Source: Halarcobacter mediterraneus (GTDB taxonomy: Bacteria; Campylobacterota; Campylobacteria; Campylobacterales; Arcobacteraceae). Taken from it: 64,000 nt of DNA. The stretch spans positions 310,001 to 374,000 of the forward strand of contig NZ_NXIE01000002.1 in NCBI RefSeq assembly GCF_004116625.1, written 5' to 3'. Every line of letters starts with the position of its first letter. Within the stretch, counting starts at the first letter, position 1. The notes beneath the pieces are model-generated. The model was not told the DNA's origin, did no database searches, and worked only from the letters and a program-made list of their open reading frames with translations. Position numbers and translations under genes: made by a program. Positions 26,349 to 33,597 of this stretch are shown here, piece by piece.

Positions 26349-28175
26349 ATGAAAACTAAAAATAAAATTATTTTACTTGTGATTTCAATAATTTCATTTA
26401 CCTTTTTTCTAATTACAATAGATATGATCTATAATTTTAGAAGTTATGGTATTAAATCAATAGATGACAAAGCAAAAGCAATTGCCAAAACAGTTGAACA
26501 CTCATTAACTTCTCAAATGGTAAGTGGAGTAATAGATGATAGAGAACTCTTCTTAGGGCAATTAGAGGATATTCCAAATATTGATAAAATATGGTTAAGC
26601 CGTGGACAAAAAGTAATTGATATGTATGGAAAAGGATTAAACAATGAAACAGCAAGAGATGAAGTTGATAGACAAGTTTTAGAAACAGGAGAAACTAAAA
26701 AAGTTGTTAATGACCATATTTTTTCTCAGAGTACTTATAGAATAACTATTCCATATAATGCAACAAGCAAAGGGAAAATAGACTGTATGAGTTGTCATAC
26801 AAATGCCCAAGAAGGAGATACTCTTGGAGCAATTTCAATACAAATGTCAATAGATGATTCAAAACAAATAGGAATAAAAACAATTACAGATACACTGTTA
26901 ATAGCTTTAGTCTTAATGATAGTAATTATATTTCTATTAAATTTTTTAATTTCTCCATTTTTATCATTATTTGATTCTATTAAAAAAGTAATGAATAAAG
27001 CTCAACAAGGGGATTACTCTTATAGAATAAAAAATCCTAGTGGAAAAGAAGCAAAAGATGTTGCCCTTTGGATAAATGGCTTACTTGAAAAACTTGAGAT
27101 TACCCTTGAAGCAATTGATTCTAAAATCTCAATCTTTCTTTCTGAAAATCATAAAATTACTGATAAAGATCATTTAATTAATGTAAAAAATACTGTAGAT
27201 AGATTATCAGATGTCTATAAATTTAGAAAAACAATAGAATATGATGAAACGATTGATGATGTATATAATAGACTTGCTGAAGTATTAAAAATAAAGCTAG
27301 GTATTACAAAATTTAATTTCTTTGAAATAAGTACAATTTCAAATGAATGTAAACTTGTTCATAATGAAGCAAAAATTATTTGTAAAATATTTGAAGAAGG
27401 ATGTAGAGCAGATAGAACAAATACAATTATTGATTCTACTCAATTTAAAGATATATGCCCTTCATGCAAAGCCTGTGATAAACAGAATTATTTTTGTGTT
27501 CCTTATGCGATATCAAATGAATTAGACTTAATTATTTCTATCTATACAGATACTGTTACACAAACAGTTAAAGTTAGAGAAATGATTCCTTATATTCAAG
27601 ATTATGTAGATGCAGCAAAAACCGTAATAGTTAGTAAAAAACTAATGAATATACTTGAACACAATGCCCAGACTGATGCCTTAACAGGATTAAAAAATAG
27701 AAAATATCTTGAAGACATTACACCAAAAGTTACTTCCCAAACCAAAAGATCAGGAATTACTTATGGAGTACTTTTATTAGATATTGATTTCTTTAAAATG
27801 GTAAATGATACTTATGGCCATGATGTAGGAGATAATGCTATTAAAATAGTTTCACAAACTTTAAATGAAAATATTAGAGAATCAGATATTGCTGTTAGAT
27901 ATGGAGGAGAAGAGTTTGTAGTTTTACTCTACAATTGTGATGAACAAGGAGCAATAGATGTTGCCCAAAAAATCAGAACAAATTTTTCTAAAAAAAATAT
28001 TCCAACAGGTGGTACAAACTTTATTCAAAAAACTATGAGTATCGGAGTTTCTATCTTTCCTAATGACACTTTGGAACTTGAAGAAAGTATTAAATTTGCA
28101 GACTTAGCTTTATATGAAGCTAAAAACTCAGGAAGAAATAAAGTAGTTAGGTTTGATAAAACATTAGTTAATTAA
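26349..28175 (+). CDS. Membrane diguanylate cyclase with periplasmic heme-c motif and Cys-rich domain
   Basis: 608 aa. Membrane helix at 7-26, periplasmic region (27-176) with a single CXXCH, C146-MS-C149-H150, in a Tll0287-like sensor context; second membrane helix 182-202; HAMP-like segment (203-255); cytoplasmic region (300-410) with seven cysteines (334, 345, 352, 370, 373, 376, 383); GGDEF domain 440-605 with GGEEF at 519-523 and I-site RESD at 510-513. It should make cyclic di-GMP in response to a redox or gas signal read by covalent heme and possibly by a cytoplasmic metal or disulfide centre; the signal itself is inference. Confidence 0.88.
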   Translation: MKTKNKIILLVISIISFTFFLITIDMIYNFRSYGIKSIDDKAKAIAKTVEHSLTSQMVSGVIDDRELFLGQLEDIPNIDKIWLSRGQKVIDMYGKGLNNETARDEVDRQVLETGETKKVVNDHIFSQSTYRITIPYNATSKGKIDCMSCHTNAQEGDTLGAISIQMSIDDSKQIGIKTITDTLLIALVLMIVIIFLLNFLISPFLSLFDSIKKVMNKAQQGDYSYRIKNPSGKEAKDVALWINGLLEKLEITLEAIDSKISIFLSENHKITDKDHLINVKNTVDRLSDVYKFRKTIEYDETIDDVYNRLAEVLKIKLGITKFNFFEISTISNECKLVHNEAKIICKIFEEGCRADRTNTIIDSTQFKDICPSCKACDKQNYFCVPYAISNELDLIISIYTDTVTQTVKVREMIPYIQDYVDAAKTVIVSKKLMNILEHNAQTDALTGLKNRKYLEDITPKVTSQTKRSGITYGVLLLDIDFFKMVNDTYGHDVGDNAIKIVSQTLNENIRESDIAVRYGGEEFVVLLYNCDEQGAIDVAQKIRTNFSKKNIPTGGTNFIQKTMSIGVSIFPNDTLELEESIKFADLALYEAKNSGRNKVVRFDKTLVN

Positions 28176-30810: not shown

Positions 30811-31311
30811 ATGTCTAACGAAACAAATAGACGGGATTTTCTAGGTTACACATTTGCAGCTGTTGCAGCTGTTGGTGGAGCAGCTTCACTTGTTGGTATG
30901 AAACAAGTGTGGGATCCATTACCAAGTGTATTAGCTGGTGGATTTACAACAGTAGAACTTAGTGGACTAAAAGCGGGAGAGCCTCAAACATTTATGTGGA
31001 GAGGTAAACCAATTTTTGTACTTAAGAAAACTACTGATATGGAAGATAATAGTAGAGACTTATTAATTGGTGATGATAGATTCACTGTTGCAATTGGTCT
31101 TTGTACTCACTTAGGATGTATTCCTGCATGGAAGAAAAATATGTGGAAATGTGCATGTCACGGTGGAGAGTTCAACCCTAGTGCTGAACAAGTTTTTGGA
31201 CCTCCTCCTAGACCTCTTGATTTACCTCCATTTAGTGTAAAAGGAACTTCTATCGTTTTAGGAGAAGAAGGACCTGAATACAAAAAAATCGCTGCTGCGA
31301 TGATGGCATAA
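30811..31311 (+). CDS. petA: Ubiquinol/menaquinol-cytochrome c reductase, Rieske iron-sulfur subunit
   Basis: 166 aa. A twin-arginine start NRRDFLGYTF and hydrophobic helix (about 11-29) anchor it and direct Tat export. Rieske [2Fe-2S] ligands are visible: C98-T-H100 with C103 in box I (CTHLGC) and C114, H117 with C116 in box II (CACHGG); C103 and C116 would form the disulfide. It carries electrons from quinol to cytochrome c1 in complex III. First gene of petABC; a strong RBS AAGGAAG precedes it. Confidence 0.97.
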   Translation: MSNETNRRDFLGYTFAAVAAVGGAASLVGMKQVWDPLPSVLAGGFTTVELSGLKAGEPQTFMWRGKPIFVLKKTTDMEDNSRDLLIGDDRFTVAIGLCTHLGCIPAWKKNMWKCACHGGEFNPSAEQVFGPPPRPLDLPPFSVKGTSIVLGEEGPEYKKIAAAMMA

Positions 31312-31321
31312 GGAGAGGTAA

Positions 31322-32569
31322 ATGGCAAAATTTGAAAAAGCTAATTCTGTAGGTGAATGGTTAGATCAAAGACTTAACACTACAGCTTTAACAAAAGTTT
31401 TAATGACTGAATATTGGATTCCAAAAGATATTAACTTCTTATGGGCTATGGGTGTTCTTTTAGCAGTAACGTTCAAAATCTTAGTAATTTCTGGTTTATT
31501 CTTAATGATGTACTACAAACCAGATGTAAATTTAGCATTTGATTCTGTAAACTATACAATTATGCAAGAAGTTGCATATGGTTGGTTATTTAGACACATG
31601 CATGGTGTTGCAGCCTCTGTAGTATTCTTAATTATTTATATTCACATGTTTACAGGAATTTATTATGGTTCTTATAAACAAGGTAGAGAAATGATTTGGA
31701 TTTCTGGTATGTTATTATTTATGACATTCTCAGCAGCTGGTTTCTCTGGTTATATGCTACCATGGGGACAAATGTCATATTGGGCAGCAATGGTTATTAC
31801 AAACTTATTTGGTGGTGTTCCAGTTATTGGTGATGCATTAGTTGTGTGGATTAGAGGTGACTTTAATGTTGCAGATGCTACATTAACTAGATTCTTTATG
31901 TTACACGTATTCTTATTACCAATTGTTATTATGGGTATCATTGGATTACACTTTTATACATTAAGAATTCCTCACGTTAACAATCAAAAAGGTGAAGAAA
32001 TTGATTATGATGCAGAAGCAGAAAAATATTTAACTGGAAATAAAAAAGAAGCTAAAGTTATTCCTTTCTGGCCAGTATTTATTTCAAAAGATTTTGCAAT
32101 TTTAGGTATTTTCTTAATTTTCTATTTCTATTTAGTATTCTTCCATTATAACTTTGCAATGGATCCAGTAAACTTTGATCCAGCAGACAATATGGTTACA
32201 CCTGCACATATTTATCCAGAATGGTATTTCTTATGGTCATATGAAGTATTAAGAGGTTTCTTCTTTGATGTTGGTCCTGTTAAGGCATTTGATATTGGGT
32301 TAGCAGCATTTGGATTTGCAAACGTAATTTTCTTATTATTACCATGGTTAGATAGAGATACAAAAATTTTACCAGCACATAAAAGACCTATGTTCTTTAT
32401 TTGGTTCTGGGTATTAATGGCTGACTTGATTGTATTAACAATTTGGGGTAAACTACCTCCAACAGGTACTAATGCGTGGATTGGATTTGCAGCAGCAATG
32501 CTATTTATTATCTTATTCTTAGTACTTCCAATTGTTACAAAAATTGATGCAAAAAAGAGAGGTGAGTAA
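31322..32569 (+). CDS. petB: Cytochrome b of the bc1 complex
   Basis: 415 aa, about eight membrane helices, binding the two b hemes and both quinone sites. Seen: AYGWLFRHMHGVAASVVF and HVFLLPIVIMGIIGLHFYTLR with the heme histidines, PWGQMSYWAAMVITNLFGGVPVIG (Qo site) and PEWYFLWSYEVLR, the conserved PEWY loop. Short extra loop KYLTGNKKEAK lies between the two halves. SD AAGGAGAGG; its stop codon overlaps the petC start (TAATG). Confidence 0.97.
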   Translation: MAKFEKANSVGEWLDQRLNTTALTKVLMTEYWIPKDINFLWAMGVLLAVTFKILVISGLFLMMYYKPDVNLAFDSVNYTIMQEVAYGWLFRHMHGVAASVVFLIIYIHMFTGIYYGSYKQGREMIWISGMLLFMTFSAAGFSGYMLPWGQMSYWAAMVITNLFGGVPVIGDALVVWIRGDFNVADATLTRFFMLHVFLLPIVIMGIIGLHFYTLRIPHVNNQKGEEIDYDAEAEKYLTGNKKEAKVIPFWPVFISKDFAILGIFLIFYFYLVFFHYNFAMDPVNFDPADNMVTPAHIYPEWYFLWSYEVLRGFFFDVGPVKAFDIGLAAFGFANVIFLLLPWLDRDTKILPAHKRPMFFIWFWVLMADLIVLTIWGKLPPTGTNAWIGFAAAMLFIILFLVLPIVTKIDAKKRGE

Positions 32570-33597
32570 TGAGAGAATTAAAAATATTAGCAGTAGTAGT
32601 AGTTTTAACACTTGTTACATACTGGGGAGTTGAACCTTTTGCTCACTCTCAAATGCATCCACATGTAGAACCAGCAAATTATAATTTTGCTGAAGCAGAT
32701 AAAGAAACAACAAAAGAAGCAGTAACTGTTGCTAAAGAAGCTTTAGAAGAAGCACAAAAAGAAAATAACGAAAAAGATATTCATCTTGCACAAGTAGAGT
32801 ATGATAATGCAGTGGCATTTGAAAAAACAATGACTGATTTTTGGACTGCAAATGAAGAAGTTACTTCATTAACTGGAAATGCTGAAAATGGTGCTGTTTT
32901 AGTACAATCAAATTGTACAGCGTGTCACTCTATTGAAAAGCAAGGTTTCCCTCAATTAATGGATAATGCAAGTGCAGCAGCAGCTTATGGTGTAGTTCCT
33001 CCAGATTTAAGTACCGCAGGAAAGATTTATACAAAAGACTATCTAGTTGCATTTATTAAAGACCCTGCTTTAGCATCAAAAGTATCTCATAAATTTGTTG
33101 ATGGTAAAATTCATCCAATGCCAGGTTATGGTTGGATGCAACCACAAGAAATTGCAGATATGGTAGCTTACTTACAATCAATTTCTCCAAAAGAAATGAC
33201 AAATAAGGAAGTATTTACTGATGCTTGTCAAAGATGTCATGGTATTAAATATGGAGATATGCAAGGTGGTACAATGGCTGCTAAAACTCCAAATGAAAAT
33301 ATCAAAGCATACATGGGGAAACTTCCTCCAGATTTATCACAATATATTAGATCAAGAGGAGAATCATACTTACATACATTTGTTAATGACCCTCAAAAAC
33401 ACTTAGAAGGTACTGCTATGCCTAGAGTTGGTTTAACTAATGATGCAGAAGTTCAAGTTGTAAAATATATGCAAGAAGTTGGTGATTCTAAAAAAGAGCA
33501 AAGAGAAGCTTTAGGTCCTAAGTTCTTAATTTATCTAGTAATTTTTGCAATTTTCGCTTGGCTATGGAAAGCAAGTAAATGGAGAGATGTTCATTAA
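32569..33597 (+). CDS. petC: Diheme cytochrome c1 of the bc1 complex
   Basis: 342 aa. N-terminal hydrophobic helix (4-19), two covalent heme motifs CTACH (116-120) and CQRCH (220-224), and a C-terminal membrane anchor (317-333). Diheme c1 is usual for this phylum, unlike the monoheme c1 of mitochondria. Residues about 42-90 form a highly charged, Ala/Glu/Lys-rich helix before the first heme. It accepts electrons from the Rieske protein in the periplasm. Start overlaps petB stop by 1 base. Confidence 0.95.
   Translation: MRELKILAVVVVLTLVTYWGVEPFAHSQMHPHVEPANYNFAEADKETTKEAVTVAKEALEEAQKENNEKDIHLAQVEYDNAVAFEKTMTDFWTANEEVTSLTGNAENGAVLVQSNCTACHSIEKQGFPQLMDNASAAAAYGVVPPDLSTAGKIYTKDYLVAFIKDPALASKVSHKFVDGKIHPMPGYGWMQPQEIADMVAYLQSISPKEMTNKEVFTDACQRCHGIKYGDMQGGTMAAKTPNENIKAYMGKLPPDLSQYIRSRGESYLHTFVNDPQKHLEGTAMPRVGLTNDAEVQVVKYMQEVGDSKKEQREALGPKFLIYLVIFAIFAWLWKASKWRDVH

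Follow-up and report, generated by a model that had tools for sequence, protein, structure and literature searches.

The definition of periplasmic Cache domains with a covalently bound c-type haem as a large family dates only from a 2026 preprint (PMC12889525), which reports NO binding in a member fused to a signalling output and redox-like behaviour in a stand-alone one. In the haem-containing MCP sensors of Geobacter, the reduced haem has Met60 as a ligand, which CO or NO displaces (PMC8396549). The characterised relatives of the haem domain thus indicate NO no less than redox potential as the signal (PMC12889525, PMC8396549). On the cytoplasmic side, metal centres associated with GAF domains have been described in CSK/Hik2, whose [3Fe-4S] centre has a potential near -15 mV (PMC6949291), in AirS, where peroxide and a nitrosating agent react with a [2Fe-2S] cluster on C-X7-C-X-C-X17-C (PMC4601167), and in MtPrpR, another iron-sulfur precedent (PMC6765138). 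Among redox- or O2-sensing diguanylate cyclases, DgcO and VcBhr-DGC place the GGDEF domain under the control of a metal cofactor (PMC8846402). The enzymes of this kind covered in the same review are single-site sensors built on protoglobin, PAS or hemerythrin domains, and its text contains no match for "iron-sulfur" or "c-type".

The window analysed here, i.e., the whole stretch of 64,000 nucleotides of Halarcobacter mediterraneus DNA, encodes a protein which, by alignment, profile and fold comparison, is a haem-c Cache diguanylate cyclase with an extra, widespread and unnamed cysteine GAF domain, hereafter Cys-GAF (Table 1). An earlier, sequence-only reading had placed a CMSCH motif (residues 146-150) on the periplasmic side, and this description holds: the frame encodes 608 amino acids, with the motif between two predicted transmembrane helices. 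It had further called for a domain search of both sensor regions: Pfam finds nothing there in the window protein, whereas a fold search recognises a Cache and a GAF domain. Pfam HAMP gives no match in the window protein itself and matches 11 of 71 family members. The first homologue set, gathered in a single scan of genomes from bacteria and archaea, comprised 80 relatives that are 31-87% identical, i.e., 81 sequences with the query.

Table 1 Features of the predicted two-site diguanylate cyclase, in window coordinates.
Feature	Residues	Position	Strand	Basis
Whole ORF, haem-c Cache / HAMP-like / Cys-GAF / GGDEF diguanylate cyclase	608 aa	26349..28175	+	Direct reading and model
TM1	~6-30	26364..26438	+	Hydrophobic sequence; model helix 2-59
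Periplasmic single-Cache, predicted covalent c-type haem	27-180	26427..26888	+	Fold alignment, hhalign, weak Pfam across members
Candidate distal axial haem ligand	Met57	26517..26519	+	Conservation; alignment with Mcp40H Met
CMSCH haem-attachment motif	Cys146-Met-Ser-Cys149-His150	26784..26798	+	Direct reading; 78/78 homologues covering the site
TM2	~179-201	26883..26951	+	Hydrophobic sequence; model helix 169-219
HAMP-like linker	~202-264	26952..27140	+	Two long model helices
Cys-GAF	286-434	27204..27650	+	GAF fold match
Fourth putative ligand	Cys345	27381..27383	+	120/132 relatives
Putative core ligand, CRA-x-RT motif	Cys352	27402..27404	+	130/132
Putative core ligand	Cys370	27456..27458	+	130/132
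Alternative fourth putative ligand	Cys373	27465..27467	+	In 8 relatives without Cys345 but with four Cys
Putative core ligand, C-h-P motif on GAF strand	Cys383	27495..27497	+	130/132
GGDEF diguanylate cyclase	440-598; GGEEF 519-523, I-site RESD 510-513	27666..28142	+	Pfam PF00990, E 1.8e-45

Residues 27-180 of the window protein carry no Pfam name, and neither PF11845 nor PF21563 matches it at the curated cut-off. Across family members both models match weakly, the best member reaching E 0.019 and 7e-5, respectively. When a profile of the haem domain was run against the PDB, cytochrome c3 was the only match, around the CXXCH (E 0.028), and a fold search was needed. For this, residues 25-436 were folded anew; a search with the whole model had been dominated by the GGDEF domain. 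In VIA-align, the predicted Cache superimposes on the haem protein Tll0287 (5b82; Z 10.5, rmsd 3.6, 122 residues) and on the Cache of the WalK ectodomain (4ywz; Z 12.0). In hhalign, the haem-domain profile matches, at 99.0% (E 7.8e-18) and with CXXCH aligned on CXXCH, MCP sensors that score above the cut-off of PF21563 (Mcp40H-20). Judging by its name, PF21563 is the family to which the haem-containing MCP sensors of Geobacter belong. The same profile also matches CXXCH domains encoded in the same genome, those of an MCP (98%) and a GGDEF-EAL protein (97%). These two proteins (L087:96-2288 and L088:17-2578, both on the - strand) have related periplasmic CXXCH domains, which match PF11845 below the cut-off in both and PF21563 below the cut-off in the MCP.

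The CMSCH motif is more than a chance occurrence, because composition predicts only 0.002 CXXCH in the protein. Met57 is invariant in the first alignment and is kept in 109 of the 113 haem-bearing relatives with a residue at this position, the exceptions being three Phe and one Val. It aligns with the conserved Met of PF21563-positive proteins and is presumably the counterpart of GSU0935 Met60. A cytochrome c assembly gene is present in the genome, and the predicted attachment of haem to CMSCH is well supported by homology. As a prediction, the covalent-haem periplasmic sensor proposed in the sequence-only reading is strongly supported by a Tll0287-like Cache fold, a Mcp40H profile match, an invariant CXXCH and a near-invariant Met57. 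On the same evidence the haem part is classed as a divergent relative of the known haem-c Cache class, outside PF11845/PF21563 membership.

With the sCache_heme (DUF3365, Tll0287-like; PF11845) sensors, as the preprint passages present them (PMC12889525), the protein shares the periplasmic Cache fold, a CXXCH near the C-terminal strands and GGDEF among the outputs. It differs from them in falling below the PF11845 cut-off and in a distal ligand that is probably Met rather than Cys, and those passages mention no cytoplasmic cysteine domain. GSU0582/GSU0935 (PF21563; PMC8396549) share the CXXCH and the Met at the Met60 position, their relatives being those matched by the profile above, but they have a chemotaxis output and no GAF domain, whereas the window protein ends in a GGDEF output.

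The fold search places the cysteine region in a GAF domain, with matches to 3eea (Z 12.7, 133 residues), 3cit (Z 12.2) and many other GAF structures; the model was built without cofactors and has a confidence of about 68-75 at residues 340-380. No Pfam or NCBIfam model matches this region of the window protein, and no solved structure was found for it by sequence. Weak GAF_2 or GAF_3 matches occur in a few relatives (GAF_2 in 3 of 49, best E 0.0014). Profile searches located the Cys-GAF in 48 of 200 Campylobacterota genomes; for the phylum to which a Magnetospirillum relative belongs, the count was 71 of 398 genomes. By these searches it is a separate module, coupled to GGDEF in Campylobacterota and Pseudomonadota, and no Pfam model covers it in the window protein. 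No description of it was found in the literature searched, subscription papers being mostly outside reach. A weak profile match was also seen in L154, an open frame of 659 amino acids on the - strand, where a GAF domain of the type C-W-G-L-R-R-G / C-G-H / C-F-P precedes GGDEF. The Cys-GAF of the window may thus be one branch of a wider family in which GAF domains bear cysteines.

Seven cytoplasmic cysteines had been singled out in the earlier reading (334, 345, 352, 370, 373, 376 and 383). All are present in the protein, but C334 and C376 are not conserved: in the first set, C334 occurs in 1 and C376 in 11 of the 81 sequences, compared to 72 for C345, 65 for C373 and all 81, at identities down to 31%, for C352, C370 and C383. 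A ferredoxin-like CX2CX2C reading of residues 370-376 was ruled out by the scarcity of C376. As judged from the alignment, four or five of the seven matter and the meaningful set is C345/C352/C370/C373/C383. C530 in the GGDEF domain, the sole further cysteine outside the CXXCH, is unconserved.

The core trio C352/C370/C383 is found in 130 of 132 relatives, and at least four cysteines at the five positions in 128. Spacing between C352 and C370 (C-X17-C) is exact in 129 of the 130, and the ligand spacing in the family is C-X5-14-C-X17-C-X10-20-C. C345 is absent from 10 of the core-bearing relatives; 8 of these have C373 and 2 do not. The fourth cysteine is not obligatory, since these two relatives have the trio alone at the five positions. 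Only L106 and L107 lack the core; the two are sisters in the tree, and the core set is gone from both, with no cysteine left in the GAF domain of L106. Joint loss of the set together with one exchangeable position fits the pattern of metal ligands.

As to the nature of such a metal, we lean slightly towards an iron-sulfur cluster. CSK/Hik2, AirS and MtPrpR likewise carry Cys ligands in or beside a GAF fold ahead of the signalling output, although their outputs are kinases or a transcription factor and their Cys-ligand arrangement is unlike that of the window protein. No sequence match to these proteins was found for the Cys-GAF, and the C-X17-C spacing it has in common with AirS is a lead and not a test of homology. 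The cysteines could instead form a structural zinc site, in which case the haem alone would sense and the GAF domain would act as a stabilised signal relay. Zinc is bound just as well by four cysteines, the near-fixed spacing and the loss of all of them together would suit it equally, and a movable fourth ligand (C345 or C373) is common in structural sites. We nevertheless consider zinc unlikely: the module persists without a haem sensor or under sCache_2, as if it did some sensing by itself, and the published precedents considered here for metal-bearing GAF domains are iron-sulfur or mononuclear iron (PMC6949291, PMC4601167).

Less probable still is a metal-free thiol switch, in which a disulfide, persulfide or S-nitrosation would report cytoplasmic redox state or reactive sulfur. 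Many hosts oxidise or reduce sulfur (Sulfurimonas, Sulfurospirillum), and disulfide switching is known in c-di-GMP enzymes, albeit periplasmic (PMC8846402). Two cysteines would suffice for such a switch, however, whereas here three are nearly always present and one of two positions supplies a fourth. The second, cytoplasmic centre of the earlier reading is supported as a conserved Cys-ligand set in a GAF domain, with a cofactor that may be iron-sulfur, zinc or none.

INDEPENDENCE of the two sites emerges from the tree of the Cys-GAF-GGDEF core, a quick, midpoint-rooted tree with long branches in which haem loss and gain are indistinguishable: the haem label switches at least four times. The cysteines are retained in three of these switches, and the fourth (L107) lies within the pair that lost them. 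Cys-GAF-GGDEF proteins without a haem domain occur in one Campylobacterota family (L102, L103, L104, L111), others lie beneath sCache_2 (L150, L161 and, by similarity, L152) and others have membrane helices alone (L131, L144, L146). Conversely, L106 retains the haem motif and GGDEF but has lost the GAF cysteines, as might be expected if the protein were an ordinary haem-c Cache diguanylate cyclase responding to NO or redox state, with the GAF domain binding a small ligand, as GAF domains usually do, and the cysteines being fold constraints that play no part in sensing. We regard this as highly improbable, given that the cysteines, across two phyla and under different input architectures, are better conserved than the remainder of the domain (mean column identity 47%). 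By domain content, haem and Cys sites are separable modules, and most carriers keep both. The presence of two sensory sites in one predicted protein is well supported, and a two-input redox or gas sensor is likely because the pairing of haem domain and Cys-GAF is kept across two phyla.

For the output, the GGDEF domain noted earlier was confirmed by Pfam. Residues of the A-site (GGEEF) and the I-site (RESD) are invariant or nearly so in the family alignment, and the protein should, on this basis, make cyclic di-GMP. Two loci, L108 (927.. + and 1253.. -) and L109 (844.. + and 1258.. -), each hold an adjoining opposite-strand pair of divergent Cys-GAF diguanylate cyclases, one partner per pair having a degraded GGDEF signature (YSGDTF, LSGDEF).

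The best explanation, to which we give somewhat better than even credence, is a one-component, two-site sensor diguanylate cyclase that combines a haem-c Cache with a metal-GAF. Haem c would be attached covalently to the Cache via C146 and C149, with His150 as proximal and, by homology, Met57 as probable exchangeable distal ligand. Redox state or NO would swap the distal ligand, as in Geobacter GSU0582/GSU0935, and the movement would pass via TM2 and the HAMP-like linker. In the cytoplasm, C352, C370, C383 and C345 (or C373) would hold a metal centre where GAF domains usually bind their ligand. An iron-sulfur cluster is the most likely such centre, and its state (O2, NO, iron supply or redox) may set the conformation of the domain. 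Judging from the family, both inputs would converge on the helix preceding GGDEF and alter dimer geometry and thereby cyclic di-GMP output, which the I-site would limit. In line with the earlier proposal, both centres may be redox sensors which the protein integrates, and both may regulate cyclic di-GMP synthesis.

The gene sits between addA and argB-thrC, and cytochrome bc1 genes then follow (Rieske, cytochrome b and cytochrome c1-like; window 30811-33597), downstream past argB and thrC. Gene order says little on the signal, because no more than the six nearest relatives (L001-L006) share addA-dgc-argB-thrC-petA; the operon was discarded as a clue, the order being one of housekeeping genes. 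Among these neighbours no link to a respiratory or NO operon was seen. Elsewhere in the genome, a second copy of the haem-Cache/Cys-GAF/GGDEF architecture with its own CXXCH lies on contig C1 (L089:3802-5655). A CXXCH-bearing histidine-kinase-like protein (L090:2-1282, - strand) passes PF11845 and adjoins a response regulator whose C-terminal part is HD-GYP-like.

What is new here, as far as domain comparison goes, is the Cys-GAF as a module of its own, found under haem-Cache, sCache_2 or bare membrane inputs. Only tentatively, it may represent a new iron-sulfur sensor domain devoted to the synthesis of cyclic di-GMP in Campylobacterota and Pseudomonadota, mostly paired with haem c, so that the enzyme would compare electron or NO status across the inner membrane. 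Natural single-input controls exist, with haem but no cysteines in L106 and cysteines but no haem in L102, L131 and L161. A cluster in the cysteine GAF, if there is one, would give cyclic di-GMP signalling a further class of input and would offer a natural one-protein test of the comparison of periplasmic and cytoplasmic redox or NO status.
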